The notes beneath the pieces are model-generated. The model was not told where the DNA came from, searched no databases, and saw only the letters and a list, made by a program, of their open reading frames with translations. The translations under genes and the position numbers were made by a program. Below are positions 3,801 through 33,800 of a DNA stretch of 35,742 nucleotides, one piece after another. Every line of letters starts with the position of its first letter. Positions within the stretch are counted from its first letter, which is position 1. This stretch comes from Hondaea fermentalgiana (Eukaryota > Sar > Bigyra > Thraustochytrida > Thraustochytriidae), in NCBI GenBank assembly GCA_014084085.1, contig NPFB01000040.1, positions 898,173-933,914 of the forward strand, read 5' to 3'.

Positions 3801-6800
3801 GCCTCGATGCGGCGAGCGCTGGTGGCGCTGTCGAGATCCGAGCCGGCCAGGGTTCAAGCGCCCACTCCGCCGACGGAGGCGATGGTGGCCACATGGGTAT
3901 TTACGGTGGAGAGGCTCGCGGCACGGCTTCAATTGATGCTGGTGGAGACGTCGATATCCATGGAGGGCGATCTTTCGCCGGTACGGGTGGCTCGCTTCGT
4001 ATTTCCTCGGGTGCGAGTACCGGAACCAGCTCGGGTCACATCATCATCGACACGAGTAACGCCGGCAGCACAGGTATCAGCGGCGCGATGACGCTGTCCA
4101 CGGGCACTTCAAGCTTCGGGGACAGCGGCTTTGTGTCTGTTGTCACGGGCAAGGCCATGGGTGGCAAAGGTGGCTTCATCAACCTTTTCGTTGGCGAAGG
4201 CAATTACGGAGAGGGAGGCCATGTCTCCATTTCGGCGGGAAAAACGACGGATTCTTCCGGAGCCTCTGGTGGCTACATTGCAATGACTACGGGTTACTCG
4301 GCCCAGACCAGTTCTGGTTCCTTTTCGCTGCGCACCCCCAACGCTGGTCTCATCGGCGTTTCGGGGGGTATCTCGCTCAGCACAGGTACTACAAGTGACG
4401 GAAACTCAGGAATGATCGGTCTGGGCACGGGTGAGGCCAACGAGGGTCACGGTGGCGATATTCGCCTGTACGTGGGCACCGGGCATTCGGGCGATGGCGG
4501 AGACGTTCTGATCACAGCCGGCGAAGCCACTGACGCTGCAACTGTAGGAGGAGACATCATCCTGACCGCGGGCGAGGGCTCCAGCGAAGACTTTTCGAAT
4601 GGTGGCAATGGTGGTAAAATTCAGCTCTTTGGTGGCGCGGCCCAAGGTACCTCGAGTTATGACACAGGTGGTAACATTGAGCTTCAGGGCGGCTACGCGC
4701 GCCAGGCTTCGGGTGGTGACATCACCTTGACCTCAGGGTTTAGTAAGCAGACCACCAGTGGTCATGTCGTCATTGTCACTGCTGACGCAGGTGTCAAGGG
4801 CGTGTCGGGTTCAATCTCGCTCGCAACCGGCGAAACCTCGGACGGACCCTCGGGCGCTTTCTATGTAACAACGGGCGATGCCAACAATGGCAACGCGGGA
4901 AATATCGAATTTTTTGTCGGCTCCGGCAACTCTGGATCGGGTGGTGATGTCTTTGTCACCGCCGGCGAAACAACGGCCAAGTCGGGCAGCGGAGGTGATA
5001 TTCGGATGGCAACGGGTTACTCGACGGAGACCTCCAGTGGGTCCTTCTTCCTTGACACACCAAATGCAGGCAAGTCTGGAGTCAGCGGCGCCATGCACTT
5101 TAATACCGGAACTTCGAGCAAGGGCAACACGGGTCAGATTTCATTTGACACTGGCACGGCAAACCGCGGCAGCGGCGGCTCTTTCACCGTTCAAGTAGGC
5201 ACGGGTAACTCTGGCAACGGAGGGCATGTCAGCCTCATTGCCGGTGAATCCAGCGCGGACAAGAAAGCTGGTGGCCACGTGGAAATTCGCGGAGGTCTCG
5301 GTTCGAGCAGCAACGGCGCCAACGGTGGTGATGGTGGAAACGTCACAATTATTGGCGGCGAAGCGCTTGGAGGCGACGAAGAGGATCTTGGTGGTTTTGT
5401 CAACGTTACGGGTGGCCAAGCCTACAAAGGAACGGGTGGATCGATCCTCCTCACGACCGGTTTTGGTCGTGAGACTTCGAGCGGTCGCGTGAACATTTCA
5501 ACCGCTGACGCTGGAAAGGAAGGCGTCTCTGGTAGTATCTCGCTGGTCACTGGACATTCTTCAGCCGGAGACTCTGGAATCGTTCGCATGCGGACGGGCA
5601 ACGCGGAAGACGGCAAGGGCGGCAACATCGAACTTTACGTCGGCAAGGGCGACTGTGGTAATGGCGGAGACGTTAACATCACCGCCGGTGACACCTCTCA
5701 GGCCAGGACACAAGGAGGAAGCATTGAAATGCGGGCTGGTACGGGTTCCTCCACTTCAAATAGCGACGGCGGTGATGGCGGCGATGTGCACGTGTACGGT
5801 GGACGCGCAGCTGGCCTCAACGCGCGCGATCGGGGTGGTAACATCACTCTTGAAGCCGGCCCGAGCGCCATGGGCACTGGTGGATCTATTCTTATGAAGA
5901 CTGGATATTCCTCACGTCGCAGCAGCGGCGAATTTATTCTCGAAACTGCGAATGCCGGCGAAGCAGGTGTTTCGGGTCGCATGGTCCTGCGCACAGGCAC
6001 AGCAAGTGACGGCGATTCTGGCTATGTGCACATTGAAACGGGAACTGCCTTTGACGGTAAAGCAGGTCACATCAATATGACTGTTGGCTCTGGCGCTGTT
6101 GGAAATGGCGGCGCGGTCTATATTACCGCGGGAAATACCACCGACATGCGTAACGAGGCCTCCGGAGGAACCATCACGGTCTCATCCGGTGCAAGCTTGG
6201 CATCTTCGAGCGGCGACATTTCCATCTCCACGCCGAATGCAGGCGAGGAGGGCGTAAGCGGGGCGATCCGCCTCTGGACCGGCACCACTAGCATGGGCAA
6301 CTCTGGACTTTACGCGATTACTACTGGTCGCGCAACGGACGGTCGAGGCGGTAGCTTTCTCGTTCAGGTCGGCACGGGCACTGGCTCGGGATACAATCTT
6401 GGTGGCAACATCACGATGCGAGCAGGCAACACGACTTCGCCGGCGACGCGTGGCGGGCCGGTCGAAATCACCGCCGGAAACGGACTCTCAACAGACAACT
6501 CGAACGGCGGCTCGGGCGGCCACGTAAATCTTACTGCTGGCCTCGCTGCCGGAAAGGCGACTGTCAACACGGGCGGAAACGTTAATATCAACGCCGGTGC
6601 CTCAGCGCGTGGCACGGGTGGCAATATCTATATTGCAAGTGGACGGAGTTCTACTCACTCGTCGGGTTCCGTCACGATTCTTACGCCTGATTCGGGCGCC
6701 AACGGAGTCAGCGGCGGTATGTCTTTCAACACTGGTAAAGCTCTCGCTGGATCCTCCGGAGGCTTTAATGTGACGACTGGAAATGCAACGGACGGTCGCG

Positions 6801-9800: not shown

Positions 9801-12800
9801 GCGCGTCCGGATCAGTTCGCATTGAATCGCAAGCTGCAAGCGAGGACGGCTCCGGTGACATCATCCTTGCTTCTGGCGCTGGGTCTGATGAGGCTACATC
9901 TGGCAACCTCCGACTTGGCACGGGCGCCACCAACGCTGGGGTTTCTGGTAGCGTGCGCATTGCCGTCGGACGAGCTTCGACGGCGAGCGCCGGGGATGTG
10001 GACATCTTGGCAGGCAATTCAGAAAGCATTGTCTCTGCTGACAAAGCTGGCGACGTGAACCTGGTGGCCGGCAATGGCACGTCGAGCTCGCAAGGCCAGG
10101 GTGGCTCCATTTCGTTGCGGTCAGGAAATTCTGCGGGCTCACTGAAGACCGCTGGAGCCATTGATCTTCAAGCCGGGCGCGCTGCGGGGCAGGGAGAGGG
10201 CGGTTCCATCTCCGTTCTTAGTGGTGAGTCCCGCCTTGGGACCTCAGGATCGATTAGTCTTGCATCAGCGGACGCCGACACAGGTTCCTCCGGGTCAACG
10301 GGCCAACTTGCTTTCGCGACGGGTACAGCCGACTCAGGCGATTCGGGCATTGTCGTGATTGAAACCGGTAACACGGATCTGGGTGATGCTGGCTCCATTC
10401 GCCTTCAGCCAGGTAAAACAAACCGCGGTCAGGCCGGTGACGTACTCTTCACGGCGGGCGCCTCCGAATCCACTACGGGAGGATCGATCGTCTTGATGAG
10501 CGGAGCTTCCGATGACACGAGCAGCGGTGCAGTCAGCATCGCGACTGCCGAAGGCGGCTCTGAGGGCGTCAGTGGGGCAATTTCGCTTCGCACAGGGGCA
10601 TCGCATGATGCCGATTCTGGGGAGATATCTTTACAAACAGGAGATGCAGAAGGCACTGGCGCTGTTGCGGGAGCGATTTCCCTGCGAGTCGGCGAGTCTG
10701 CAGATGAAGCGGGTAGCAACATCACAATGCTCGCGGGTTCCACCGCAAGTTCGCGCGTGGGCGGGTCGGTGAATATCACCACGGGCCGTTCATCGCAGAC
10801 CTCGAGTGGATCGATTCTGCTGCAAACTTCAAGCGCAGGGGCCGCGGTGTCTGGTCAAGGCGGTGTATCTGGAAAGGTGCAGGTTCTCACTGGTGTGGCA
10901 ACGCGCGGATCCTCGGGAGAAGTCGAGCTCTCAACAGGAAGCGCCCAGGCGTCCGGCGGGAATATTCGTCTTCAGGTCGGTACAGGCTCCTCGGGAGTCG
11001 GCGGCGGAATATATCTTCGAGCTGGCAATGTCACAGGAAGCGCCGCAACCACCGGTGGTACCATTTCGCTGCTTGCTGGCTACTCTAGCACGACCACGAG
11101 TGGAAGTGTGCTCATCGCGACCCCAAATGCTGGAATTCTAGGTGACTCTGGCGCTTTGCGTCTGAACACTGGGAATGCAGCCAGTGGCGGAAGCGGATCC
11201 GTGCTCCTCAGCACCGGACGCGGCGCCGCAGGTGCCGCTGGGTCAATCTTCCTCAGCGTTGGCGATACGACAGGCGGACGGGAACCTGCTGGAAACATTA
11301 GTCTCACAGCTGGTGCTGCTATGGGAACCGGTGAACAAGGTGGCGCGATCTACATCACGAGTGGTAGCAGCGATGAGGGCGAGAGCGGCGTCATCGAGAT
11401 GAAGACTGCCTCCGCCGAAGGAACAGAAGGAAGAAGCGGGTCAATGCTTCTTGCGACGGGAAGCAGCGTTGACGCAGATTCTGGAACGCTGACGATTAGC
11501 ACGGGAGATTCTGACGACGCCGCTGGTGGCGCACTTGACATTTTCGCCGGCTCTGGCTCTGCAGGCAAAGGTGGCCTGCTCACACTACAGGCTGGAAACC
11601 AGTCGTCTGGCGACGGCGGAAATGTGATCATTTCTGCAGGAGGGAGCACACACGGTGCAAGCGGCTCGATCGCTCTGTTGACACCAAATAGCGACGAGGA
11701 TGAAACTGGCAGCATTCGTCTCGCTACAGGTTCTGCGGCCTCGGACAAATCGGGACGGATTTCGCTGAACACTGGCGATGTTGATGGCTCCAGCCCAGCT
11801 GATGTTGCAGGATCCATTCAAATCGCAGCTGGGAGCACGCGGACCGCGCAAGGCGCGAATGTGAGCGTCTCTGCAGGCAACTCTGAGCTTTCCGCCGGCG
11901 GAGATCTCTACCTTGATGCTGGGAATGCCACCACCGATGCTGCAACCCGTGGCGGGCACGTATACATTTCGGGTGGAACAACTGTATCCACTGCGACTTC
12001 CTCCGGGGGTGGAGCCGTCACAATCGAAGCTGGCTCGGCTCGCCGTGGGACCGGAGGTGCGGTGGAGATCTTTTCTGGGAAATCCTCTTCTGCTAACACC
12101 GGTGAAATCCTCATTCGCACTGCGAGTGCTCAGGCGAGCACTGGAAAGCGTAGTGGCGCGGTGACTGTTGCAACCGGCGAAACCGAGGAAGGTCCCTCCG
12201 GCGAGATTCTCCTTCAGACAGGAACGGCATCATCTGGATATGGCGGTCCCATCAAGCTCAGTGTCGGTGACGGTGATTCTGGCAAGGGTGGTTCAATTAC
12301 CTTGGATGCTGGGTATTCAACTGGGGCATCGGGTGGTGACGTCGAAATTACCTCTGGGCGTAGTGGCTACCACAGCACTGGAGCCGTCAGCATTTCCACT
12401 GCAGATGTCGACGCGTCGACAGCGAACAGTGGTCTTATTTCCCTTCAGACCGGAAGCTCCGGCAATGTTGGGGGGTCAAGCGGTGCGATTCTTCTCCAAA
12501 CAGCTGATTCTCCCAAGGGCGCAAGTGGAAGTATCTCGGTACTCGTGGGGAAGAGCAACGGGCTCCGCGCGGGAGGCGGGAACCTGACCACCCGTGCGGG
12601 TGATAGCGATGATGGAACGGGAGGATCTGTTCTCATTAGCTCTGGCGCGTCTGACTCGTTGTTGCACAACAGTGGCTCTCTCACTTTCCGCACGGCCAAC
12701 GCCATGGCCACAAGCGGGGCCGTTTACATCGCATCAGGCAATGCTACAACGTACTCTTCAGGTAGCGTCTCGATTGTTTCCGGCTCGGGTGCCGACGGCG

Positions 12801-15800
12801 CCGGGAAGATCAGTCTTACCGCTGGAAAGGCAACTCAAGGCGAGGCGGCCAATGTGGAGATCACTGCTGGTGCCACGGGTCAGGCAGCAATGTCAGAGAC
12901 CGGCGGAAGCGTGATCCTGACGAGCGGAAAGAGCGAGCGCGTCAGCAGCGGCAGCATCCTGCTGCAGACCGCGAGCGCTGGAACGTCGGCTGGTGCTACA
13001 TCGGGACACATCGCGCTCACCACAGGTTCCGCATCGAAGGGCGATACCGGTGAAGTTTCGCTTTCGACCGGCGACGCAGGCGACGGCAGCGCTGGGCGCA
13101 TTTCGCTCTCTGTGGGATCCAGCACGGATGCCCAAGGTGGGTCGCTCGACTTGCGTGCCGGTGATGTCACTTCTGGTGGTTTTGAGGCTGGATCGATTGC
13201 CCTTCGCAGTGGCGCAAGCTCTGAGAGCTCGAGCGGAAGTATCTCCCTGGAGACCAGCGATGCCGCACAGAGTGGGGCCTCGGGACTTGTACGCATCAAC
13301 ACAGGTACAACTGCCGAGGGAAGCTCTGGGACGATCTCGCTTCAGACGGGCGATGCAACAGAGGGCAAAGGTGGAGACATCATTCTCAAGGTTGGATCTG
13401 GAGACTCAGGCACGGCTGGTGCTGTTGAGATTAGCGCTGGACACATGACCAACACGGCAGGCGGCGATGTGAGTATCTCCTCCGGGTCGAGCACGCAAAC
13501 GCACAGCGGCGATGTCGTCATCGAATCCCCCAGCGGAGGTGTCAATGGTAACAGTGGTACTCTCCGCCTTTCAACGGGTGCTGGCGGGGTGGCTTCGGGG
13601 TCTTCTGGTGAAATCATCCTGGAGACCGCAGGTGCCTCGATGGGCGAATCGGGGTCAATCACCTTGTCGGCAGGCCAAGCGAGCGAAGACGGTGGTTCTA
13701 TCTTATTGCAAGCTGGCCAGTCCTCGAGTGAAAGTGGTGGCAACCTTACCATGTTTGCCGGCACATCGCAAACCGGTGCTGGCGGCAGCGTGAACATTAC
13801 GTCCGGCTCTGGCAGATCGCAGAGTGGTAATGTCACCATCGCGTCGAGCCATGCGACTTACCAGGACGGTCGATCCGGCTCCCTCGTTCTTGCGTCAGGC
13901 ACGTCGCACGAGACAGCCGGAAACCTGACCTTTTCCGTGGGTCGCACCCTCGGATCTTCAAACCAAGGTGGCAGTGTTCGAGTATATGCTGGTAACGCCA
14001 CGAGTAGTACCGGTGGGGAAATCATCATTCAGTCCGGCGGCAGCACTACCTCCTCAAGTGGAGCGATTCGCATTGAAACTTCTGGAAGCGGCTCAGGCGG
14101 GACAAGTGGACCCATCTATTTGTCCACCGGCTTTGCGATGGAAGACGCGTCTGGCGCTATCCGCATTGTCACGGGAGATGCTGACGCAGGACGTGCAGGG
14201 AATATCGAAATTAACGTCGGATCTGGTGAGTCTGGTGACGGTGGTAGCGTAAGCATCACGGCAGGTCACACGCGAGCCGTGAATCACGTCGGCGGCGATA
14301 TCGCTATTTCATCTGGATCGAGTGTCTCGTCATCTAGTGGCGGGGTGGCTATTGCTACCGCTTCTGGTGGCTCAGCCGGGCGAAGTGGGGAAATTAAACT
14401 CTCCACAGGTACGGGAGACGCTCAAGGATCGGGTGCTATCCGCGTACGAACAGGAAACTCGGCGTCCGCCAGTGCTGGAGGCATCTTTATCCAACCTGGC
14501 GACAGCGACGCTGTCGATACCGCGGACGACGGAGTGGTACGGATCGCCGCAGGTGATGTCTCTCATGGCACTGCCCCAGGCGTTTCCGTGCTCGGTGGCT
14601 CGAGCGGAACTTCGACGAGCGGAAATGTGAGCGTCGCTTCGCAAGACGCTGGAACGAGTGGATCGAGCGGGCGTATTAGCCTCGAGACCGGTCTTGGCGG
14701 ATCCGATGAGGGAGGTTCCGGAGGCATCTACGTTACCACAGGCGACGTGCCAAGCGATGGCGCTGCTGGCTCCATAGATCTCCTCGTGGGCTCGAGCTTT
14801 GATACTGCCGGTAGCAATATCTCGCTAACGGCAGGCTACAGCGCCGGAAACTCCGAAACTGGTGGCAGTGTCATCCTGTCTTCTGGTGGCAGTGCCAGAG
14901 CAGATAGCGGGCGTATCATTCTCTCCACGGCTCAGGCTGGCTCTCAAGGTAACAGTGGCGGAATTGTGCTTGATACCGGCAGTGCGGAAGAGGGCGACTC
15001 GGGTAGCATAACTCTGAATACTGGTTCGTCTGAGTCTCGTGGCGTGGCTGGCGACATCACCGTCGCGGTCGGCGAGTCTTCTGCCGGTGACGGTGGGGTG
15101 ATTTCCCTCATGGCGGGGAAAACTATCGCGCCTGGTGCGGATGGTGGCAGCATTGAGATCTTGTCCGGAGAAACCAAGAGCGCAACGAGCGGCTTGGTGC
15201 GTATTGCCTCGGCCGCGGCGTCCGAGTCGGGTGGGTCCATGAGCGGAAGTGTTGAGATTGAGACGGGCGATTCCGTTTCAAGCACAACGGGCTCAGTCGG
15301 CATCCGTACAGGCTCGGCGGCCACTTCATCGGGTGATATCATTCTCGAAAACGGCGCCTCGGAATCCGGAACTGGTGGATCCATCTCAATTCTCGCTGGA
15401 AGCTCTTCGAGCAGTACTGGTGGATCAATCTCGCTTATTGCTGGTTCGAGCGACGCTCGAGGAAGTGGCAGCATTCAGATTGCCACCAGCAGTGCCGGTG
15501 CACTTGCGACATCTGGCGACATTTCCCTTTCGACGGCGGAAGGGCCGGGCGGCTCTGGTGGGCTTTCGCTGCACACGGGTGGCTCTGAAGATGGCACCAG
15601 TGGGTCCATCTCTTTGGTTGCTGGTACCGCTGAACAAGGTGGAAATGTTGACGTTGCTGCGGGCAACACGACTGGCAGCTTTCGTGCCGGAAATCTGACG
15701 CTGAGCGCTGGTCATCACTCGGCAAATGTTGCCTTGGGAGGCGGAGGCAGCATCTCCATTCGAGCTGGTGACGATGACTCCTCGCGGAGCCATAGCTCCC

Positions 15801-18800
15801 TGGGCGGTGGGGATATTCGCCTTGATGCCGGATCTGCGGCAGGAGCTCGACCCGGTGGCGCGATTTCCCTTTCAACTGGCGCGAGCGGGGGGCGGTCTTC
15901 TGGAAGCTTTTCGGTACAAACGGCGAGTGGGGAGGCCACTACAGGAGCCATCTCTCTCGCTACTGGAGATAGCCAGGAGGCTCCTTCGGGTTCTATTGTG
16001 ATCTCCACGGGAAGTGCTTCGAGCGATTCAGCCGGTAGTATTAATCTCAGCGTCGGCGCGAGCGCTGAAGCCGGTGGAGAGATTAGCTTGCATGCCGGTG
16101 ACAGTGCGACGAGTGTGGGTGGACGTGTGGATATTCTGTCTGGAGCATCTTCCACAGCAACCGGGACTTCAGGGGACATCTCAATTGCTTCTGCAGGCGA
16201 AACCGGCGCGCACCCTGGCGGAACGGGAGCCGTCACGCTTGCAAGTGGCTCTGGCTCTGGCGCGACGGGTGGTATCGAACTCTCAACGGGTGTCTCCTCG
16301 TCAAGAAAGGCAGGCTCCGTCTCTATCGCGGTCGGCTCCTCTGCTTCCGGGTCTGGATCAGGGGTCGAGATATCTGCAGGATCTCAAGTAGCCTTGACCT
16401 CGTCTGCGTCTCGGACAGGGGGCAACATCGAACTTCGCTCGGGCGAATCGTCCCTCTCTTCTAGCGGAGCGATCTCGATTTCAACACCTGATGCTGGCTT
16501 GAAGGGCTCGTCGGGCAGCATTTCGCTCTCGGTTGGAACAGCGACTTCCTCGTTATCGGGAGGTAGCATCACCCTCGCCAGCGGTGGTGCCTCGTCAGGC
16601 ACTGGTGGCGCGATTGATATTCTCTCCGGTGCGGCGACCAATGGTCGTGGCGGCGCAATCAGCGTTGCAGTTGGGCGCAGTGCGTCTGGAAGTGGTGGAG
16701 GCATTCTCATCGCCTCGGGAACTTCTGATGAAGCCAGTGGTGGACTCGTGAACATTTCGGCAGGAGCAGGCGATGACCGAGGTGGCGATCTCGTGATCGG
16801 CGCCGGGCCTTCGTATGGAACAAGCACAAGAACTTCGCTAGGAGGAAATCTCAATATCTCAGCAGGTCTTTCGCGGAAGGCCCTGGGTGGCAACCTTACA
16901 ATCGAATCTGGCGCGAGTTTGACGTCGAGCAGTGGCAACCTTGCAATTGCGACTGGGAGCGCCGAAGAGACCTCAGGAACCCTGAGCTTGACAACAGGTA
17001 GAGCCGCCGTGGGTTCTTCAGGCACCCTGCAGCTCCGTACTGGCGTCGCGAGCGAAGGTAAGGCCGGAGGTATCGAGATTGCCGCAGGTGCTTCCGAGGC
17101 CAGCAGCGCTGGAGCTGATGTCTCCATCATGGCAGGAAACGCGACGGAAGAAGACGCCTCTGGAGGTCGCCTGCGCTTGTTCTCTGGTCCTGGTGAGGCA
17201 TTCAGTGGTTCTGTATCCCTCGGATCTTCGTCCAGCTCTCTTAGTGGGTCCGTTCAAATTGCCTCTGGTGAAGCCACAAATGGTGATTCCGGAGCTATCT
17301 TCCTCGGATCCGGAGCATCGACACATGGGGCTAGCGGGAGCGTGACCATTGGCGCGGGCTCCGGAACCAGGGGCTCAGGGGGGGGTGTCTTCCTTTCCGC
17401 TGGTTCGCAGAGTACCGGAGAAGGAACCACAGGCGGCGCAATCAATCTTCAGAGTGGCGCGAGTTCGGCGTCAACAAGCGGAGATGTGAACATTGCCACG
17501 GCTTCTGCAGGGGAAGCCGGTGTATCAGGGAAGATCTCCTTGTCGACAGGAACATCCTCTGTGGGCGACAGCGGAATGCTGTCTCTGACTACGGGCGATG
17601 CAGATTATGGTGCTGCAGGCAACATTGCCATTTCGATTGGGGTGGCGTCTGTTGGAACGGGAGGAAATTTTACTCTTGATGCAGGAAACACCACCTCAAA
17701 TCGTGACGGTGCTCGCGGCGGAAGCGTGGCGATTCGTTCTGGTTACTCCTCTGAAGCGAGCAGTGGTCCAATTCAGATCGAGACCGCAATGGGGGGCGCA
17801 GCAGGCGATTCGGGAACTCTCGCTCTAGGCTCTGGCGCGGCTGTTCTCGGGAATTCCGGAACCGTGATCCTTGGTTCTGGAAGTAGTGCAGCCGGCACGA
17901 GTGGTGCCGTGCGCCTTACAACAGGCACTTCGGTATCAGACGGCATGGCTGGTAACATCGAACTTGAGGTAGGCGAGTCCCAAGATGGCAATGGTGGCGA
18001 TGTCGTTATTTTTGCTGGTAATACCAGCTCTGCTGGAGGTTCTGGAGGTAGCGTGTACTTGCATGCAGGTGGGGGTGGCGATTTCGCTTCGAGCGGATCC
18101 ATTTTCCTCGCTACCAACGCCTCTGGGCTTGGCTCTGGGGGCATTTCTTTAAGCACAGGTGCCGCAAGTTCTACTTCTGCCGAATCCGGATCGGTCTCAA
18201 TTACTACTGGCTCCTCTGCTCTTGGCGAAGCAGGCGCGATCAATATTGTGCCCGGGGCTACGGCGAGTGAGAGCCACGCTGGGGCTCGCGTTCTCATTGC
18301 TGGTGGGGACTCGGAGTCTCTGTCAGGAGGCAAATTGACCTTGCGTAGCGGCGCATCTCTTACTTCTTCGAGTGGAGATGTTGAGATCCTCACCAGTGGA
18401 GTGCAGGGCGGTTCGAGTGGTAAGGTGCTCTTGCAAACCGGATCCTCGACAAATGGCGACACCGGGAGCATTGAGCTGAGCACGGGTGACGTGGGGTCTT
18501 CAGGTCAAGCTGGTGCGATCAGCCTTTCGGCAGGAAGCAGTGACAGTGCTCAGGGCGCTGGAATTTCTCTCCGCGCTGGCGAGACGACCATGCGAGCCTC
18601 TTCTGGCGGCGAAGTGTCAATTGTATCTGGGGCCTCACTCGACTCAGGTACGACGGGTGGAGTGTCGTTGTCAACGGCTGACTCCACTGACGGTGCTACT
18701 GGTGATATCAGTCTTATCACTGGTGTGGCCACCGGTGCATCTTCTGGTGCAATCAGGCTGAGCACCGGTGCATCCGCTGCTGATGGCGCGGCAGGTAAAA

Positions 18801-21800
18801 TCGTACTTGCAGTCGGCGGCGCTGACGAAGGTGCCGGTGGAAATATTGAGCTTTCTGCCGGCGCCGGCACAACTGTTGGCGGCTCGTTGCTAATGCAAAG
18901 CGGTGAAGCGCCGAGCGGCGAGGCCACCGGAAGTGTGGCCATTTCCTCGGCTGACGCAACATCTGCCGACTCGGGAATGGTCACAATTGGTTCTGGAGTA
19001 AGCTCGAGTGGGTCTTCCGGAATTACAAGTGTGGTGACCGGCGATGCAGCAGCAGCAGGTGCAGTTCACGTTTCAGCTGGTTCCAGTAGTGTTGCAACAA
19101 GTGGCGCGAACGTCGAGATCCAGGCAGGTGCCGCGACTGCGGAGTTGAGCACTGGTGGAGATGTGTCGATCCTCTCGGGCGAAGGCATTGATGGATCCGG
19201 AAGCATCGCGCTCGGATCCGCGGACTCGAGCTCCCTTGAAAGCGGCACGGTGAGCATCGCTACTGGTGCTGCGGGCTCGAACGCAATGCACAACTCGGGC
19301 GAGCTTTCACTCTCGACAGGATCTGCCGGGAACTCGGGCGGCGTCAGCATCAGCACTGGAGCAGCAGAAACTGCTCAAGCTGGTTCGATCGATCTTCTGG
19401 TGGGAGACAGTGCTGGCGCAACAGGCGGGAACATCGTCCTCTCAGCTGGCGCTGCTTCAGCAACAGGTGGCAGTGTGTCCATCACTGGAGGCGAAGGACC
19501 AACGCTAAGCGGTGATGTGCGCATTCGGGGTGGTGCTGTTCCATCTGGTGGCAGCACTGGCGGCAATGTCATCCTCGCGTCTGGCGGCATAGATGCCACG
19601 GTGGAACTGCAAACCTCAGCGGGGAATGCGGTCGTCACAGTTGACGACAGCGGTGCGCTCACGCTCAAGTCATATGATAGCGAAGCGATCACTGTCGACG
19701 CAGCTGGAACCCTCGATTTCCAAGCTCGTTCTGCCACGGGAACGCGATTTTGGTCGAGCACAGGTAATGAGACTGTGTTTCGGATTGAAGACGATGAGGT
19801 CGACTCCCATGTGCCCTTGCACACGCCGAGCACACAAAGTTCTTCAGACAGCCGCATCAAGCGCGACATCCAGGACGCAGACAAGAATGAAATCTTGCAA
19901 AGACTTCAGACAATCGAGGTGAAAAAGTACAAGTACACCGAGGAATGGGCCAAGGTGAGACGTCACGATGGAAGCTTTGTCCGCGGCGTCATCGCGCAAC
20001 AACTTCGCGAGGTCTTTCCTGAGCACGTGAGCGTGAAAGCCTGGGGTATTCCGGAGCAAGGTATCTGGTACGAGGACTTTCACGTTATCGACAAGGTTGG
20101 TCTCATCATCGATCTGGTTGCAGCAATGCAGGAACAGCATGCTCATTTCACGATTGGCGCTTCTGATGTGGGCGGAAGCTCTTCAGTTGCCATTCAATCT
20201 ATCGAAGGAACGGAAGATCGCCCTGACACCGGCCATGTACGTGTTGCCTCGGGCGAAACCTTTTATGGGTCCTCGGGTAGCGTCTCAATCCAATCAGGAG
20301 ACGCTCGCGAGGGTCCAGTTGGAGATATCGAGGTGATGGTCGGGACCGACAACGGAACCGTCGCGGATGTGGGGGGTGCTCTCCGTCTATCAGCAGGTGC
20401 GAAACGATCTGGACGCGGCGGGGACTTTATTGCTGTTGCCGGCGTGGGAAGCACAGTCGGAGGTACCGCTCGCGTGAGTGCTGGCGACGGGAGCACGGGA
20501 GAAGGAGGCGCGATTCGTCTTGCCGCAGGCAGCAGCAACAGTGCGGCTGGTGGCCGCGCCTCTCTCCTTGGTGGCGACTCAAGTCTCGCCGCGGGCGGAC
20601 ATGTGGATATCACCGCAGGATCATCGCTCGGGGACGCCCAAGGCGGAAGCGTACATCTTCAAAGCGGCGGAAGTTCTCTCGGCGGGGACTCTGGTAATAT
20701 CTCGGTCGCCACCGCTGAAAGTCTCAATGCTCAGAGCGGTGACATCAGTATCTCTACGGGCGCGAGCAACCTTGGCGTCGCAGGATCGATTCGCCTTGTA
20801 TCTGGCGATAGCTCAATGCAGGCCGGGGACCTTGCATTCGCTGCGGGGTCTTCCACCGCAGGCCTCGGAGGAAGTGTGCGCATCTCCAGCGGAGCGTCGA
20901 CTGGGCTCGATGCCGGAAACCTTGAACTTATCGCCGGTGATGGTCGAGCCGCAGCGGGTAATGTTTCCATTCTCGCAGGCGCAAGTTCCTCTGCTCTTGG
21001 TGGAACTATTCTTCTTCGTGCTGGAGGCGGTCTCGGGTCTACAGACGGGGGCGACCTTGTTGCGCAGGCTGGTTTCTCTGAAGAAGGAGTGGGAGGTGCT
21101 CTCGTGTTCGCTTCTGGCGCTGGAGCGGAAGAAACTGGCCGCGTGGAAATCTCATCTGCTGTAAGTAGTGGAGAGACAGGTGGCGTTTCTGTTGTCAGCG
21201 GCGCCAGCGCAGCTGGTTCTTCGGGAGATGTCTATCTGGCCTCTGGAAGGGCGGCTAGCTCAAGTGGCTCAATCGTCCTCGAGACAGGCAACTCAACCGG
21301 TGCTACTGCTGGAAACATTGAATTACGCGCAGGGTCTGGCCCATCTTCTGGCTCGGTGCTTTTGACACCAGGCGACGGCCCAACTAGCGGAGTCTTCATT
21401 CAAGATGCTTTGCAGGAGCCCCGGGTCGAAGTATCGAGTGCCGGCGAGGTTCGCTTGAGCTCCAGCCCGTCCGAGGACGTAGTCTTCGAGCCTGGACATG
21501 ACACGCGTATCGAGTTTTCGAACTCGGAGTCCGAGTTTACCATTGGTAACACGGAGAACATGGTTGACGGAAACATCACCTTCCGCATCCGGCAAGACGA
21601 GATTTACGCGCATGTTCCCATCCAAGCTACCTCTGTGGTGTACCCGTCTGATCGACGGATCAAGCAGAATATCGAAGACGTCGATCAAGCGAGCGTCTAC
21701 CACCGTTTGCAGCAGGTCGAGATGAAACAATACGAATATAACGCGCAATGGCGCTCGATTCGTGGCATGACGGAAAGCAAGGTCGTGCGTGGAGTGATTG

Positions 21801-24800
21801 CTCAGCAGCTTCGTGAAGTCTTCCCCGAGTACATCAATATCATCTCCAACTTGTCTTTCCCGGACAAAAACTTCGCGCTCGAGGAGTTTCACGAAGTGAA
21901 CAAGCAAGCGATTACGCTTGATATTCTCGGCGCATTCCAGGTCCAACACAAGCGATTTACGCTTGGCGTTGATGAGACTGACAAAAGTGCTTCTGTTCGC
22001 GTGACAACGGCGAATGGCGGAGACTATTATTCTGCCGCTACCGCGGGAGTGGGCGCAAGTGGTGATATTGACATTACCACGGGAAATGCGGTCTTGGGCA
22101 AAGCAGGAGATGTTAACATTGCAACGGGCTCTTCAACCAGTGGTGCTGCGGGCAGCATCAACATTGGCCCTGGTGTCTCCGATTCCAGCTCTGGCGGAAA
22201 GCTGACGCTCAGGGCAGGTGAGGCCAGAGCCGAAGCGATGCAAGGTGGAGATATCGTGATCGAGGCAGGCTCAAGTGCTTTGGCTACTGGAGGTGCCCTT
22301 GAATTCGCGACTGCTGCATCAAGCGCGCAGGGTAGCGGCTCCATCCATGTTACTTCAGGCGCAGTTTCCTCCGCCGCGACTTCTGGCATGCTGTCGCTTG
22401 GAACAGGAAGCTCGCAGGGTCGCGCAGGAGATGTTGAGGTCAACCCGGGGTCTTCACAAAGCGGAGCCGCCGCATTGCGTCTCGCAGGAGGCTCGAGCTA
22501 TGAAGCACAAGGTCAGGGAGGGGCCGTCGAAGTGACCACGGGCGCCAGCTTTTCCGAGGGACAATCGGGCAATCTTGCGCTTCGTAGCGCCGATTCGGAC
22601 CAGTCCTCTGGTGGGGTAGAGCTGAGCAGCGGCGTAGCTCAGGGAGCCACGTCTGGAGGAGTGCTTGTTCAGACAGGCGAAGCGTCGTCACAAAGCGGCG
22701 AGCTCGCGCTCCGAACAGGGGCTACGAGCAAAGGACCCGCAGGGTCAATTGTGCTTGCTGCTGGCGAGTCTTCCTCCAAAGGCGGAAGCATCGCGCTCTC
22801 CTCAGGGTCTGCACCGAATGGTGGCACGGCGGGCGACATTTCCCTTAATGCCGGTTCGGGCACGTCTGGGGGTACACTCAGCTTCAGCGCAGGGGAATCG
22901 ACCGCGGAAGGCGGTGGCTCCGTTGCAATTCAGGCCGGAGGCTCTTCTGCGACGACTCTTGCAAGCGCACAAGGTGGTGAGGTAACGATCGAGGCTGGCG
23001 CAAGTGCTCTGGGCACGGGTGGCCAGGCAAGCCTCGTCGGAGGCAATGGTGCTATTGGAGGTGGTCTGAGCTTGAAATCGGGAAGCTCTTCGAATGGTCT
23101 CACGAGCGACCTCACTATTCAAGGCGGTGATGTTCTATTCGTCGAAGACGTCGAGCTTCTCGAAGCCACGTTGGACAGCCAGGCGACGGCCTTCAATGCT
23201 GGCCCTGTCACCGTGCGCGGAGGTACTTCCCGGGTGACTGGGGTAACTGGCGGCTGGCTTGATCTTCGAGCCGGTGCCGGAGCAAGCGATCGCATCTCCG
23301 GTGGTTCTGTCTTGATGTACTCTGGCGAAGGCGGCGCTCAGGGTTCAAGCGGTAACATCACCTTTGCTTCTGCGGCTTCGTCCGCCACTGGTAACGTTCG
23401 CATTGCTTCTGGCGCCGCGGCTGAGCTCGACAGTGGTAATATTGTCGTGGCCTCTGGCAACTCGGACGGTGGCAAATCCGGAAACGTGACACTTCAGGCA
23501 GGAAATGCGGGCGAATCCTCGGCCGGGAGCGTCTTTATTGAGAGCGGTAGCTCAGATGTCGTCGCCGGAGATGTACGGATTTCCGCTGGCGCGTCAACCG
23601 AGGCTCGTGGCGGAGCCATCGAGCTCCGAACCATCGCAGGCGCGGAGACTGTCGCCGGTGATATTGTGATCGCTCCGGGAGACAGTACGTCGGGCGACGA
23701 AGGTCTCGGCAGCGCTGGTTCTGTCGTGCTTCGCGCAGCTTCAGACTCTGGCGAAGCGTCCGGAGGAGACATTCTCATTGAGGGAGGCCATGCTCGCAAC
23801 GTGGACGGGCGCGGCGGCCAGGTATCGATCTCTGCGGGATCAGCGAACAAATTTACTGGCGGAATGCTCTCACTAGCAAGCGGGTCCAGCGTTCTCGGGT
23901 CCTCGGGTGAGGTAATCATCTCCTCGGCCGAAGCTCCTGAAGAAATCTCTGGGTCGGTTGCTGTGACTTCTGGCACTGCCAACCTTCAAAGCGGAGACGT
24001 AGAAGTGTCGAGTGGAGCTGCCGACCAGCGCTCTGGCGATTTGCGTCTCCGCGTTGGCGCGGGTGCCAGCAATGCGGGGACGCTTCAAGTTTTCGGTGGA
24101 CAGTCGACTCGGGGTCTCGGTGGCGACATCGAGGTGCTTAGTGGAGCCACGGAAACAGGCTCTCGCACTGGAGCAATCTCCATCAGCTCTGCCGGAGGCG
24201 AAGAAAAGGGAGTAAAGTCTGGTGACCTGACGCTGGCCAGTGGGAGCGCAGTTGAGGGTGTCTCGGGGTCGATCGCTATTTCGGCAGGTCACGGCGGCCA
24301 AGGTGGCGGCAGCCTCGACTTCCAGGCTGGACCGAGCGACGAGTCATTTGGCGGAAGCGTTGCGCTTTCTGCTGGTGCGTCGAAAGAGGATCAAGCCGGT
24401 TCTGTCGAGATCCTTGGTGGCACTTCCTCTTCTGCAAATGGTGGGGCCGTTGCAATTCAAGCCGGAGATGGAAGCACAGGCGCGGGCGACTTGTCCCTCG
24501 GCGCAGGCTCCACGACAGGGCGAGAGGCAAGCGGTGGCTCGGTCTCCATTTCTGCCGGAAGCGCGGGTACGTCGGGTAACGGTGGAGATCTGACGATGCA
24601 GGCCGGCGCAGGATCACGCAAGTTTCGGGGCGGCCATGCTGTCCTCCGTAGTGGTGATACCACTGAGAAAGGGGGCATGGCCGGGGATGTCCTTGTTTCA
24701 ACCGGAAGCAACGATGCTGGTGGCTCGGGCTCGATCAGCTTGACCACGGGTGCCAACTCATTGCAGTCGGGTTCGATCGAGCTCACAACGAGCGATGCTG

Positions 24801-27800
24801 TCGAACAGTCGGGGTCCATCCTCCTGTCGACTGGTTCCACTGATGAAGAGGGTGAGACAGCTGGTTCCATCGAGTTGTCGGTAGGCGCAACTGCAACTGG
24901 TGATGGCGCCTCAATCATCGCGCGCGCTGGAAAAGCCACAGGCGAGGCAAGCTCGGGAGGTGGAATCGACCTTTTCGCCGGCTCAAGCCAGGATGGTGTT
25001 GGCGGACTCACGCGAATTTCAGGAGGTGCCTCTACGTCGGGTTCGCAAGCTGGCTCCGTCTCCATTATTGGAGGTGAAGCCGCCAAGGGCATCGGAGGGC
25101 ATATCAACCTCACGGCTGGAGTTGGCCAGTCACTGGGCGGCTCTCTTGCGTTTCGTGGCGGAGAGGCCCTTGAGAGTGGCGGAAACGTTGAAGTGGAATC
25201 CGGTGCTGCGACCCGAGGTGAATCTGGGTTTCTTAAAATGCGAAGCGCAGACTCCTCGCAAGGAGATTCGGGTGCAGTCCTTGTCGAGTCCGGTTCTAGC
25301 AGATCCGAAAAGTCGGGGTCCCTCGAGTTCAAATCCGGTGACGCTAGGTCCTCGGGCAGCGTCTCTCTCTCAACCGGCGCTTCTTCGTCTGGATCTGGCA
25401 ATTTGCTCATGGCCACAGGCGATTCAACCTCTTCAGCTGCGGGCACCGTGCAACTGACGGGAGGCGCTTCCACAGCTAGTACTGGCGGCAGCATCGAAGT
25501 TACGGGCGGACATGGAAATCGTAATGGTGGCAGCATTCGCCTTGCGACTGGAGAGGGTCTCTCGAGTGGTACTTTTGAAGCCGGAACTGGTGAGGCCACT
25601 TCACAATCAGGGAATGTGGTACTGTCGACGGGCGAGTCCATCAAAACGGGTGCGGTGCATCTTCTTTCCGGAAATGCTTCTACGCAAGCCGGAGGTGTGC
25701 TCATCCAGGCCGGAATTTCTCGTGCAACGACCAAAGGCGCGAGCGTGACGGTCGCATCGGGTGGAACCAGGGGCGCCGGCGCCGAGACGGGAGACATTGT
25801 ACTTTTTACTGCGTCTTCCGAGCTCGGTTCTTCTGGCCTTGTCAACCTCACTGGAGGCTATGGCGCCCGCCAGGGTGGCTCTGTTTTCCTTGCTGGTGGT
25901 TCGTCGATCTTGAAGGGCGGAAATATCAATTTGCGCGCGGGCGGCGCATCCCAAGGTTCTGCCGGTGATGTGAGCTTCTTGGCCGGAAATGCCTCGAGCA
26001 GCGCATCCGCTGGCAGTGTTGAAATCCGCGCAGGAAATGGCGAGGCGTTTCCCGGAGGAGACGTTCTCATCTCTGGCGGCGCGAGCTCGCTCTCAAAGAG
26101 CGGCAGCGTCTCTATTGAGACCACCAAAGGTTTCTCGAGCGGTTCCGGTGCAATCACTCTCGCAACGGGTGCTGGCGATGGCGGTCCAACTGGCCGTTTG
26201 AGTTTACGCACGGGAGACTCGGGCTCAGCCGCTGCTGGTAACGTCGAAATCGCTGCGGGCAAGAGCTCCAAGACAGCGGGTTCGACCGTCGCCATCATTG
26301 CTGGCAACACAACAGGTAGCAATTATGGTGGCACTGTGCAAATTCAGGGTGGTGCGACCGCAACTGGAAAAGGCGGTTTGCTTCATCTTCTTTCTGGCAC
26401 CAGCACGTCTGGGTCAACCGGTGACATCATGCTCGAAACCAGCCGTGGACAGGGCTCTGGTAACGTGACGATCCGATCCGGCATTGGCAGCCAGGTCTCT
26501 GGCCCAGTGCTCATGGCGTCTGGTAACACAACCGAGGGTAAGAGCGGAGACGTCAGGATTGAAGTGGGCGCTGCGACATCAACCACGGCGTCTCCGGGCA
26601 CTCTTCGGATCCATGGTGGACATGCTGTTGGTCGATCAACACCAGGTGGTGCTATTGTGATGGAAAGTGGGGCTCACGCGGGTGCCAACTCCAGTGGAAC
26701 GATCTCCATTCGAAGCGCTGACAGCAAGCAATCGGGGACGGGATCTATTTCGCTAGCGTCAGGTAGCGGACCAGCCTCGAGCGGAGACGTTAGCATTCGA
26801 ACAGGAGACTCGACCAGTACGGGTGCCGCTGGAGATATTCTTCTTTCTGTTGGGGCTACGTCTCTGTCGGAAGCCCAAGGTGGATCGATTTCAGCGCTCG
26901 CCGGAGCTTCTAAGGAAGGTGCTGGCGGGGACATCACGCTCACGACCGGTTCAGGGGCGACCACTTCGGGCCAACTTAACCTTGCCACTAGCAAGGCTGG
27001 TGATGGCAACAGCGGTTCTGCATTTCTCTCTACTGGTGACGCTGCTGAAGTTTCGGGCTCGATGACTATCTCCACTGGTGATGCTTCGGACGGTGGTGCG
27101 GGCAACCTAACCTTGCAAGGAGGGCGCTCGTGGTCGATGTCTGGAGGCAACGTTGATCTCATCGGGGGCGCTGGCCAGCAAGGAGGTGGGCGCATTCAGC
27201 TAGAAGCCGGTGCCACGACACAGGGCCAAGGCGCAGCGATAACTCTTGTCGCCGGCGAGAGCGCATCTGGGCCTGGTGGAAATGTTAGAATTGCTGCTGG
27301 GGAGGGCTCAAGCCTTGGTGGCGCAATTGAAGTCGTCACGGGGACCGGAGCTGCGCAATCAGGGGCCATCTCGGTCGGAACCGCAGCGGCAACTTTGACG
27401 GACGCGACCTCGGGCGCAATCGATATGAGCACTGGGTCTGCGAGCGGCGCCGCGGGAGCTATTGCAATCAAGGTTGGCCAGACCACCGCAGGGCCTTCCG
27501 GCGGAGCGTTTGATCTTGCGTCAGGAACAGCTACGGCTGGTAGCAGCGTGGGCGGTCGCCTTAGCTTGCAGGCTGGAAACGGCACTGGAACAGGTGGCAC
27601 GGCGACCCTTCGTGCGGGCCACTCGCCTTCCGGTTCAGGAGGCAACTTGACTATTGCTGCAGGTTTTGGCCAAGGTCGAGGCGGCCACGTCAAACTGCAA
27701 GGCGGTGCGAGTGTTTCGGGCATCGCCGGAGACGTTCGCATCACTGGTGGAGACAGCGCGGGGACGAGTCGTGCAGGATCGGTCCACATATCCGCCGGTG

Positions 27801-30800
27801 ACTCTGTCGGTGCGGCCGTGGGCGCCGATGTTGTTGTACGTTCTGGTCATAGCTCGCAAGGCGTTTCCGGGTTGGTGAATGTCAGTACGGCTGCAGCAGA
27901 CGGCTCGAGCGGACCTTTGAGCCTGTTCTCCGGCTCTGCCGGCGCAGCCTCTGGGGACGTTACCATCCAGACGGGGCAAGCCGGCGGTGCCGCGGGCAAT
28001 ATTCGCGTACAGGCCGGATCTTCGCTTTCTGCCGACACCGGGGCGCACGTTCTCATCAATGCGGGGGCAGTCACGGCTTCGCGCGCGACGGGTGGGGCCC
28101 TCAACTTGACCGCAGGGCTTTCGTCGACCGGCGTTGGAGGCGCCGTTGCTCTCCGTGCAGGCTCCAGTAACGAAAACATGGGCGGCAAGGTGCTCGTGTC
28201 GAGCGGCTCGGGACCTTCAGGATCGGGTCAGGTGACGCTCGAGAGCGCCTCGGCGGCAAGCGAAGCATCGGGAGCCGTAACTCTTCAATCGGGTGCGTCA
28301 CCATCCGGGGTGTCTGGGAGTGTGACGGTCGCGTCCGGATCGGGTCTCCAAGGTGGCGCCATTTCTTTGCTTGTTGGAAATTCAACTCGTGAGACGGGAG
28401 GAGATGTCACGATTAATGCCGGTCGAACATCGACCACCGCAACGGCTGGCTCGGTGCGGGTAAATGCTGGTACGTCAACCGGTGGAATGGGTGGAAGTGC
28501 CGTCATTCTTGGAGGCGTGGGTGCTACACAAGGAGGCAACGCAACTCTGGGGACTGGCGCGGCGTCAAACGGTGCATCAGGTTCCCTCTCTCTCTTTACC
28601 GCCGATGCAGTCAGCGCTGGGTCCGGATCTGCCACACTGAAGACTGGCACCGCGAGCGCTGGGAGCACAGGCAAGCTGACCCTTGCCACGGGTACGGCAA
28701 GTGCCGGAGCAGCCGGAAACATTGATGTTGTTGCTGGGTCGAGCGCATCTGCCAACGGGGCTCAAGTCCGTGTGAATGCCGGCAATGCGACACGCGCAGG
28801 CATTGGTGGGGACGTCCTCATTGGCGGTGGACATGCGCTCTCAGCGGCCCGCGGTGGACATGTTAGTGTTTCTGCAGGCAGTTCAACGAGAGGCACTGGA
28901 GGTCAAGTGGCCGTTCTCTCCGGTGATGGTGCTGTCATGTCCGGAAGCGCGAGCTTTGGAAGCGCCAATGGCACAGCCTCTAGCGGTGGTGTCTCTTTGC
29001 GTTCCGGAGTTGCGGCGGCTGGCGCGAGTGGCTCCGTTCGCATTGCCACTGGCGACGCTTCAGCGTCAGCTGGTTCCATCTCAGTTGAGGCAGGTGCCTC
29101 TCAGCAGCAAGCTGGCGCAGACGTTCAAGTGTCGGCTGGTGCGAGCTCTTCGGCAGAGGGCGGAAGCATTCGTTTGACGTCGGGAGCCGGAGTTAGTGAG
29201 AGCGGCGAGCTTGTGATGAGCACCGCAAACGCTGCCTCGCTTTCCGGTGGCATCACGCTAACGAGTGGTGCTTCGAGCCAGGAATCTGGGGCTGTACAAT
29301 TGGGCTCCGGTATGGCACCCTCAAAAACAGGAAATGTGGACGTCATGGTCGGAGATGCAGCCACCGGCCAGGGCGGCAATCTTACCCTGCAAAGTGGCTT
29401 TAGCGGCGGAAGTCGCGTGGGGGGGCGCGTTCTCATTCAAGCCGGCTCGTCCGCGGCATCCAGCGGTGGTAGCGTCGATATCGCGGCGGGTTCTGCGCAG
29501 GGTGCAGGATCTTCGGCAGGTGGTACGGTTACGATCACTTCTGGAGGTGGCACGGCGGCGTCAGGCGCAGTGCTCGTTTCAACTCCCAAATCAGCCGTCT
29601 CTGGATCCATTCGCATTGCAAGTGGTAACGCCACAACCTCATCTGGTGGAATCGCCATTGCCGTGGGCGAGGGCAGCGCGGCTGGCGCGCTTCTCCTGGC
29701 TGGCGGCAAATCAACATCGCGGACCCAAGGTGGCTCGCTGACTATGCACGCCGGCGCGAGTACAAGCGGAATGGGTGGCAACGCCGTCTTGCGAGGCGGC
29801 AACGCCACCGGTGGCTCGGCGCAGGGTGGGGCCCTCCATCTCGCCTCTGGTTCGAGCGTTGGCGGCGAGAGCGGGGGTATTCTGCTCGAGACCCCTGCCG
29901 CAGTTAGCGCTGCTTCCGGCGCTGTCGTACTGCAGACGGGCGACTCGAGCACGGAGCGTTCGGGTGCGTTTCTCGTTCAAACGGGCAACGCGTCGTCGGA
30001 TTCCGCCGGGGACATTTCTGTGCATGTTGGTAACTCACTCGGCGGTGACGCCGACGGCGGTATGGTAAATATCCGTGCTGGAGCCGCTTCGGGCAAAGGA
30101 TCGGGAGGAAATCTAGTTTTGACGAGCGGTACCAGTGGCTCCGGTGGCTCGGGTGGAGACATCCTGGTGCAAGGTGGCTCGGGAGCTTCCTCAGGCGGGT
30201 CGATTCGTGTTCAAAGCGGATCGTCCTCTACGCTGCAGTCAGGAGAGGTCCTGATCAGTTCTGCGGACGCAAGCGCGGCCGGCGTAGCAAGTGGACCCGT
30301 TCGCATTGCCACGGGCGTCGTAGCAAGTGGAACAGCTGGGAACCTGACTCTCGAGGGCGGCCAGTCGCAAGGATCTGGGTCCGGAGGCCACGTCCGCATC
30401 GCTGCTGGTTCATCGGCTGATCGAGCAGGCGGAAGCGTAGAAGTCGCGACGGGGTCGTCGACTGCGACAACCAGCGGGAACCTGACCCTCAGCTCTGGAA
30501 GTGGCCCGTCGAGCGGCTCTATTCAGATTGCCTCTGGGGCAACCTCAGCAGGCAGGGGTGGCAACATTCGTATTGCCGTGGGCGCATCGGCGGGGTCCAT
30601 TTACGATGGTGGCAATGTAACACTTGCAGCAGGTTCTGCGACCCGGCGTGGTGGCCAGGTTCTCGTGCATGGCGGTGACAGTGCGACCGCAGAAGGCGGC
30701 GCGATTGTAATCAGTGCCGGTGCTTCGGAGTCAGCTGTCGGCGGGGCTGTGGCGCTTCGATCCGGCGCCAGCGAGACTTCTGATTCAGGCGACGTCGAAA

Positions 30801-33800
30801 TTTCCACCCCAGACGCTGAGCGCTCGGGCGCCGTGTCTGGTGACATATTGCTTGAGACGGGTCTCGGAATTGGGGCACAGGCAGGCCGGATTGCTCTCGT
30901 TTCTGGAAATGGCCAGAGCAGTCGCGGCGGCGAGATTGTTGCAACCGCAGGCAACTCCACAAAGGGCTCGGGTGGCGGAATCTCCCTTCAAGCTGGAGCG
31001 AGTTCCGATACTTCGCTTGCGGATAGCGACGGTGGCGCGATTCGCCTTGCCTCTGGTGATGGCAATGCCGGGGGCGGAAATATCACCCTGGTTGGTGGAT
31101 CCGGAAGTAGCTTGAGCGGCGGGTCTGTGCGCGTTTTGACGGGCGCGAGCTCTCGCGCTGTCAGTGGTGAATTTTCTGTGGAGACGGCGGCTTCCAGCAC
31201 ATCAGGCCGAATTAGACTCGCAACTGGATCGGGTGCGGCCGGTGCATCCGGTGAAATCTCGTTGCAAACGGGCACGGCCAAAAGCGGCAGTGCTGGAAGT
31301 GTGCGCGTCTCTGCGGGCGAGTCGCCTGCGGGCCGCGGTGCGGCCGTCATGATCGCTGCAGGGGCGTCTGGTCTCTATTCAGGAGGTAACATTACCCTTG
31401 AGACTGGCGAGGGTGCGACTAATGGTGGTAATCTTGTCATGAGCACCGGTGCCGGCCTTGGTGGGCGCGGAGGACACGTGCTTGTCACAGCAGGCGAGTC
31501 AATGAGTGACGATGGAGCTGCAATCGTCTTTCAGGCTGGGTCCACGAGTGGTAACTTTGCAACGGGAGGAAATCTTTCGTTCTGGGGTGGAAGTGGATAC
31601 AGCGGTGGTCCTGTGGAGTTCTATGGCGGCAACGCGACCAAGGGGGCCGGCGGAAATATGAAACTTTTGTCGGGTGGAAGCGAATCAGGTGACAGCGGAG
31701 ATGTACTCGTGCACACCGCTGACGCTTTGTCCAGTGGCTCCAGTGGAAAGGTTCATTTTACATCTGGGTCAGCTGAAGCTGGCGATACGGGAGATCTTCT
31801 TTTTGCCACTGGTGACTCCGCAGATGGCCACGCCGGTGGTGTTTCTGTGCTGGTAGGCGACTCTGCTTCTGGAGTTGGAGGCGATGTGGTCATTCAGGCA
31901 GGTAGCAGCGAAAGCGAAACGGGAGGTTCTGTTTCGATCGCCGCGGGCTTTGGACAGAAGACCACAAGCGGGTCCGTTCTCATTCATTCCGAGGATTCGG
32001 GTCCTCTTGGTCGGAGCGGGAGTATTCAATTCTACACTGGTGCTGCTGCTGTCGGTGCGAGTGGTAGTATCTCATTCGAGACGGGTGACAGTGCCAATGG
32101 GGCCTCTGGAAACATGTGGTTCTCCCCTGGTCTTGGCAAGTTTGATCGTGGTGGCAATGTGTCATTCACTGGAGGTTCGAGCACGACCCATCGCGGTGGC
32201 CAGGTGAGCTTCGATACAGGCCGAGGACTTGCAACATCGAGTGGAGACTTGTTCTTTGCAACGGGTGATGCTGGTAGATCTGGCATCAGTGGCCAGATTC
32301 TCTTGCGCACCGGGACTTCCTCCCAAGGCTCGAGTGGAACAGTCCACTTTTCAACGGGCAAGGCCCTGAGCGGAAGTGCCGGTAACATTGAGTTTTATGT
32401 TGGCAACTCCACTGATTCGCGTGGTGGAAACATCACAATGGTGGCCGGTACGAGTAACTCGCGCGCTGGCGGCAACGTACAAATTTATTCTGGTTCAGGC
32501 ACCAGCTCTTCGAGCGGGAATGTGACAATTGCATCTCGTGAGGCAGGGACCTCTGGCGTGAGCGGAGAGCTTCAACTCTTTACTGGGAACAGCATCAAGG
32601 CAAACACCGGACTCATCAACATAACGACCGGGTCTGCTCCAGCTGGGCGAGCAGGCCGCTTTCATGTGCAAGTTGGGCTTTCCGGCTCTGGTGCGGGAGG
32701 CAGCGTGTTCGTGGCAGCCGGAAACAGCACCAAGGCTACGGGCGGTGGCATTGTCATTCGCTCTGGTTCGGGCGAGGCCACTTCGAGCGGAAAGATCAAT
32801 CTCTACACGCCAAATGCCGGGGTCAAGGGGCAAAGCGGAGATATCGCCGTTTGGACAGGAAACTCGACCGTAGGTCGAACTGGAAGCTTAAGCTTCGTCA
32901 CGGGCACCTCGTCCAAGGGTGCTGCAGGCAATGTGCAGATTTTCGTGGGCGCTTCGACAGGCATTAAGGGTGGTCATGTTAACATTACTGCCGGTACGAG
33001 TGACGAGCTAACTGGCGGTGATATCTACCTGCAATCGGGAAATGGTACTGCCACGTCTAGCGGTAAAATTGTCATCGAGACGGCCCGGGCTGGTCTACTC
33101 GGCGCCACTGGCATGGTTGCGGTCCGTTCGGGCGACGCCAGTGCTGGAAGCACAGGTGAGGTGCAGCTGACGACTGGTCGTGCCTCGACCGGTCGCGCCG
33201 GCAACATTTCCTTGACTGTTGGATCCGGGGACTCTGGCGCTGGAGGCGACATCACTCTGTCAGCTGGGCCCACCCGAGGGGTGCTTGGTCTCACCGGAGG
33301 TGGTATTAGCATGGTTTCTGGCAAGTCGGCAGAGTTCTCAAGCGGCAGCATTTACATTGCTACGAGCAACGCTGGAAACAGTGGCGTGAGTGGTGCCATG
33401 AGTCTCAGCACAGGTATTGCGACCCTCGGCTCGAGTGGAGAGATTCAATTGGAGACTGGTCGATCTTCGCTTGGTGGCAAGGGCGGTGACATCAGCCTGG
33501 TCGTTGGCAAGGGAACTCTAAATGAAGGAGGTGACGTGAAGGTCCGCGCTGGCAACACCACGCACGAAACAGGTGGGTCCATCTCCTTGTACTCTGGCTA
33601 TGGTTCTGCGACCTCAAGCGGCGCCATCACGTTGAAGACGCTGAATTCGGGCCTCACCGGAGTGAGCGGTCCTGTGCTGGTTTCTACTGGGACCACAACA
33701 TACGGTGCTTCTGGTGAGATTCGTCTCTCGACTGGAACAGCGCTTTCGTCGAATGGCGGGGCTATCAGTCTCTTGGTTGGCACGGGCGACACTCAAGGCG

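Follow-up and report, generated by a model that had tools for sequence, protein, structure and literature searches.

The window analyzed here, which makes up the final 35,742 bases of contig C172 in the 36-Mb, 238-contig assembly of the thraustochytrid Hondaea fermentalgiana (NPFB01000040.1, positions 898,173 to 933,914), encodes a giant repeat protein in which two Peptidase_S74 (S74/ICA) domains are embedded between repeats. Both domains retain conserved catalytic surroundings, and the same embedding is found in four relatives. An initial annotation, made from the sequence alone, had predicted two S74 domains within one giant repeat protein and had proposed the PF13884 profile as a check; both domains match it well above its cut-off of 22 bits (domain 1: 49.7 bits, E=4.4e-13; domain 2: 45.6 bits, E=8.4e-12). 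The dyads it had assigned, S6381/K6386 and S6982/K6987 as counted from the first ATG (S6407/K6412 and S7008/K7013 as counted from position 626; Ser codons at nucleotides 19844 and 21647), are correct, as is the hallmark VRGVIAQQLREVFPE, which is identical in both domains; the pattern S[DN]x[RK][ILV]K occurs nowhere else in the giant open reading frame (ORF). Given the PF13884 E-values and the length of the open frame (probability of such a run about 10^-243 by a uniform-codon estimate), chance can be excluded for this observation. From the two serines, 5,299 and 4,698 residues follow up to the end of the window, so neither is a terminal domain of the phage type. The claim that repeats continue for thousands of residues after each domain holds for domain 2; between domain 1 and the second stalk and domain the repeats span just some 400 residues.

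The S74 domain of virus fibers elsewhere joins three chains and cuts itself free, and ICA domains are known in two roles, as terminal chaperones of viral fibers and as the switch that releases MYRF. The initial annotation had drawn its comparison with K1F-type endosialidases; the ICA domain of MYRF proved closer by both sequence and fold. Its structure, 7dc3, is the closest solved one by sequence (E=3.9e-7 with domain 1 plus flanks; E=3.4e-14 with the family profile). In a fold search with a model of domain 1, 7dc3 took ranks 1–3 (E 5.9e-5 to 1.7e-4; TM by target 0.53–0.56), and the K1F chaperone 3gw6 took rank 4 (E 5.3e-4; TM 0.22). The model covers domain 1 only, as a monomer, and is of moderate quality (mean pLDDT 53; 66–81 per ten-residue block over residues 101–180; below 60 in the stalk-like segment before the domain), and displays the α1-β1-α2-β2-α3-β3/4-α4 order of the S74/ICA fold.

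We aligned the two domains of the window with the whole domains of the four database relatives (97 columns) and mapped ten MYRF positions, hand-picked from PMC8326128, at which mutations block or alter cleavage. Among the single mutants described there, a full block is reported for S587A and K592A alone, the others being partial. The Ser-x4-Lys dyad is present in all six whole copies, and nine of the ten positions are invariant across them, versus 25 of the 97 columns overall (hypergeometric p=1.2e-5, uncorrected, like the following value, for the relatedness of the copies). Leaving out position 667, which is Ile in PMC8326128 and Leu in the chain, eight of nine are invariant (p=5.6e-5); adding the hole-lining residues named in the same paper (621, 657, and 663) makes it 10 of 13. 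Positions 621, 634, and 667, which are Phe, Thr, and Leu in the MYRF chain, are invariantly Trp, Arg, and His in the six embedded copies, a possible signature of an embedded subfamily.

A protein search recovered six relatives among 7,992 scored candidates (those sharing the most words). Four of them (P0001–P0004) carry a whole S74 domain, in every case with repeats on both sides, and three of these four sit on contigs of 1.7–3.6 kb; P0006 ends 21 residues into its domain and P0005 consists of repeats only. P0003 comes from EukProt, and the family is therefore at least partly eukaryotic. Between domains 1 and 2 the identity is 43%; against the four relatives it is 49–51% for domain 1, and for domain 2 it is 50–58% against three of them and 40% against P0003. 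These values suggest that the duplication of the domain is probably not recent; as the two copies are less like each other than either is like most of the relatives, the duplication is apparently old and the dyads seem to have persisted since. Neither a 10,000-aa query spanning both domains (E≤0.001; 452 scored candidates) nor one of 2,801 aa that contained only domain 2 (70 scored candidates) returned a relative, and none of these three protein searches showed a relative carrying two S74 domains in a single protein. Among prokaryote genome contigs, 36 stretches fitted a pattern and none was confirmed. Five of 27 viral contigs were confirmed, all with S74 near the C terminus and with two near-copy pairs among them, and 92 of 50,697 annotated phage records matched at E≤0.01, all below 60% identity and none covering 80% of the query.

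The host genome as a whole yielded five S74 domains, three of which are not C-terminal: the two in the giant protein and one in an ATAD3-type AAA protein (contig C14; L010:4471-7488). In the latter, ATAD3_N and AAA score above their cut-offs, and the S74 domain lies near the N terminus (35.2 bits, above cut-off), keeps the Ser-x4-Lys dyad (Ser 46), and shows a trace of MYRF_ICA below cut-off. We know of no other ATAD3-S74 fusion, although no literature search was aimed at one. Two further host ORFs (L008:4199-7894 and L009:4043-5566) combine signal-peptide-like starts, as judged by eye, with a classical C-terminal S74 and are phage-fiber-like.

We propose that the protist makes a giant, probably secreted β-repeat protein in which two MYRF-type ICA modules, each preceded by a short stalk, would act as in-line junctions. 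Three chains would meet at a module, and the Ser-Lys dyad would then cut just before S6381 and S6982, in the manner of MYRF and phage tailspikes, to give an N-terminal piece with PSI repeats, a 601-residue middle piece, and a very long C-terminal piece. Secretion, trimerization, cutting, and the replacement of the MYRF zipper by repeat or stalk contacts are all steps that we infer. Self-cleavage into three separating pieces has about an even chance of being right. The fuller proposal is a tentative one, to which we give somewhat less than an even chance: this lineage would have turned the ICA domain into a zipper-less in-line self-cutting junction, and the tandem would process a secreted giant into trimeric pieces, each starting with the chaperone of its predecessor, with no outside protease.

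Several observations weigh against such self-cutting, chiefly at the C-terminal end of the domain. In MYRF, trimerization and cleavage need a four-heptad helix with L685, L692, R695, and L699 (PMC8326128); single mutations in this zipper block cleavage (PMC8326128; PMC3742443) and also trimerization (PMC8326128). These positions (L685, L692, R695/I696, and L699) are not conserved in the six copies: at L685, four have Gln, one has Thr, and one has Leu, no heptad pattern is seen after it by eye, and about two heptads are left in all six before repeat-like sequence begins. The local alignment to 7dc3 stops at L685, and the stretches matched by PF13884 stop before the zipper helix. In the domain 1 model the last helix has 15 residues, a low-confidence strand begins 18 residues past the conserved Lys, and the dyad stretch has a pLDDT of 28–37, so that the model does not show how the site is arranged. 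The invariance of Lys671 counts for little, because K671A left MYRF cleavage unstopped (PMC8326128). The description of the domains as catalytically intact thus stands for the dyad and for most of what surrounds it and fails for the MYRF-type C-terminal zipper: the reaction center looks kept and the trimerizing device changed, with the C-terminal trimeric coiled coil apparently missing from the six copies. The stalk or the repeats could be the replacement.

The missing zipper in all six copies also suits an explanation in which the modules do not cut at all and are instead structural knots that trimerize or cap the repeat rod, the dyad being kept for the fold; the MYRF zipper mutant L683A still formed oligomers while not being properly processed (PMC3742443), so assembly without cutting is possible. 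However, the Ser, the Lys, and most cut-site residues are invariant in the six copies, more so than the rest of the domain, and we regard this explanation as being on the unlikely side. A non-separating outcome is also conceivable, in which the modules cut but the pieces stay clamped by trimer and stalk as one nicked fiber. It draws on the same catalytic-site conservation, and the long repeat regions flanking both sides of each cut could hold the trimer, but the parts separate in phages and MYRF (PMC3742443), which leaves it unlikely. It is very improbable that splicing or a division into separate genes takes the domains out such that no mature protein carries both: no stop interrupts the frame across the two domains and the flanking repeats, as against 231 and 453 stops in the other two forward frames over the giant ORF, and the repeat-domain-repeat order lies within one predicted protein in all four whole-domain relatives. 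Finally, although polinton-like viruses of protists often have S74 fibers (PMC12220804), we consider it exceedingly improbable that the domains are remains of a decaying viral fiber gene that landed in a repeat gene, given the frame open throughout, the third-position GC content of 0.57 and 0.62 in the two S74 blocks versus 0.49–0.56 in the repeats, the apparently old duplication, the four relatives with the same embedding, and the fetched viral copies, which are of another, C-terminal type, with annotated phages holding distant ones only.

Features of the giant gene, in window coordinates
Feature	Position	Strand	Basis or remark
Giant ORF from first ATG, open at window end	704..35742	+	11,679 codons present
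Probable signal peptide (MSAP...FFFKYIVAATLVATATGQ)	704..829	+	Read from translation; cleavage site inferred
Cys-rich segment with PSI (plexin) repeats	845..1183	+	16 Cys between ORF residues 74 and 186
Repeat block 1 (units rich in G/S/A/T, most often 15 residues apart)	1256..19555	+	346 strand motifs
Low-glycine, fibre-stalk-like segment before domain 1 (..FRIEDDEVDSHVPLHTP..)	19556..19843	+	Composition; spanned by PHROG tail-fibre profiles; putative fold
S74/ICA domain 1; Ser 19844-19846, Lys 19859-19861	19844..20152	+	PF13884, 7dc3
Repeat block 2, between the two S74 domains	20246..21355	+	24 strand motifs
Low-glycine segment before domain 2 (..FRIRQDEIYAHVPIQ..)	21356..21646	+	Composition; PHROG tail-fibre profiles
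S74/ICA domain 2; Ser 21647-21649, Lys 21662-21664	21647..21961	+	PF13884
Repeat block 3, running off the contig	22076..35740	+	274 strand motifs

The window is eukaryotic DNA and not phage, as indicated by the 36-Mb assembly and by the neighboring ORFs inspected by eye. A single plus-strand ORF fills it (626-35740; 11,705 codons from a mechanical GTG start); counting from the first ATG, at 704, reproduces the residue numbering of the initial annotation. The frame is still open where the window, and with it contig C172, ends. Contig C160 begins within similar repeats (their best match to the final 200 residues of the window reaches 53% identity), which run for 1,663 residues to a stop (nucleotides 1-4992 of C160, L023:1-4992, outside the window). 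Since C160 opens in similar repeats and reaches a stop, its start is probably the end of the same giant gene; if joined, the two contigs would encode a protein of at least 13,342 residues. The C-terminal 113 aa encoded on C160, a small non-repeat domain, had no significant match (lowest E: PDB, 0.037; Pfam, 0.067; PHROGs, 0.049).

At the N terminus, the core of the candidate signal peptide is the 6th-ranked 19-residue hydropathy window of the giant protein (overlapping windows counted), and a second ATG lies within this region at 758; the protein is probably secreted, and no transmembrane-like segment was seen in the giant ORF. The PSI repeat profile PF01437 matched two stretches of a 216-aa N-terminal piece with 27.7 bits (cut-off 23.1) and nucleotides 1049-1129 in the genome scan with 24.4 bits, and scored 19.1 bits, below cut-off, within a 4,000-aa scan; a PSI_integrin match on the short N-terminal piece is likewise below cut-off. 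Scanned in three pieces against Pfam at E≤0.01, the giant ORF gave no family besides those named here. The repeats are Gly/Ser/Ala/Thr-rich, with 649 strand motifs in the ORF, 250 of the 648 spacings between them being 15 residues. Islands of low glycine (<12% Gly per 60 residues) are confined to the N terminus, both S74 blocks, and one short stretch at 3681-3740. A 200-aa model of the repeats of this putative fiber (16 rows; pLDDT 71) showed no secondary-structure assignment and matched nothing in the PDB at E≤10, leaving both a solenoid and a triple helix as candidate folds.

Directly upstream of the giant gene, about 8.5 kb (L007:195-8771, reaching window positions 1-600) hold five overlapping ORFs of 2,636–2,847 aa, spread over both strands; such a pattern points to a long repeat of tandem or low-complexity type. 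The upstream ORFs of locus L029, viewed by eye and without a profile search, look cellular: two closely similar adjoining genes (L029:167-2254 and 3508-4971) are MFS transporter-like, and presenilin-like and CSC1-like ORFs adjoin this pair. Elsewhere, C154:26768-29299 gave a partial match to a PfaA-type PUFA synthase (461.9 bits; cut-off 1010.1); the same model also matches in 11 of 14 control genomes, in none of them above cut-off, and the match is a hint of a thraustochytrid host but no proof.

Among known systems, the giant protein most resembles MYRF/MrfA, which provides the closest ICA domain by sequence and fold search, an internal position for it, and most of the cut-site residues; in MYRF this domain is single, and about 530 residues follow the cut (PMC3742443). 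The giant protein differs in its two copies, in not keeping the zipper, and in its probable signal peptide. NDT80 and MYRF_ICA (PF13887) had no match in the giant ORF at E≤0.01, and PF13887 had none at E≤1 in a six-frame genome scan; NDT80 had none there either, but its control was silent, so that genome-wide absence is not established. With the phage S74 chaperones (K1F endosialidase, T5 L-shaped fiber, and GA-1 neck appendage) it shares PF13884, the Ser-Lys dyad, and tail-fiber PHROG matches over domain and stalk; however, in the viral sample described next the domain is single and last, whereas here it is internal and in tandem. Across 85 viral loci (80 being the top-scoring among 260 confirmed relatives, from a list of at least 600 stretches, picked with a C-terminal-type query), none of the 108 frames with S74 has two, and the domain is last in all 107 closed frames, with 89–134 residues from its start to the stop; one frame is open at its end, near-copies are included in these counts, and the profile included the window's own domains. 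The fibers of polinton-like viruses of protists also carry S74 in large modular proteins on protist-associated DNA, as single, often C-terminal copies in proteins of up to 3.9 k aa (PMC12220804). The giant extracellular proteins of Apilactobacillus kunkeei are comparable as very long surface proteins (3,000–8,000 aa), but are bacterial, and the available portion of the abstract mentions no S74 (PMC12863079). The initial annotation knew of no described protein with this arrangement, which is supported for the tandem: the literature matches listed, which leave out most subscription papers, include no described case of tandem internal S74 domains. An internal S74 is not new in itself, because MYRF carries one; what is new is the tandem, zipper-less, in-line use of S74/ICA in a giant protein. 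If our proposal is true, extracellular maturation would join the known uses of the ICA domain, here through tandem internal copies within a secreted giant. The missing zipper beside a conserved cutting site allows a direct test of whether ICA cleavage is triggered by the zipper or by trimer contacts supplied by its neighbors.

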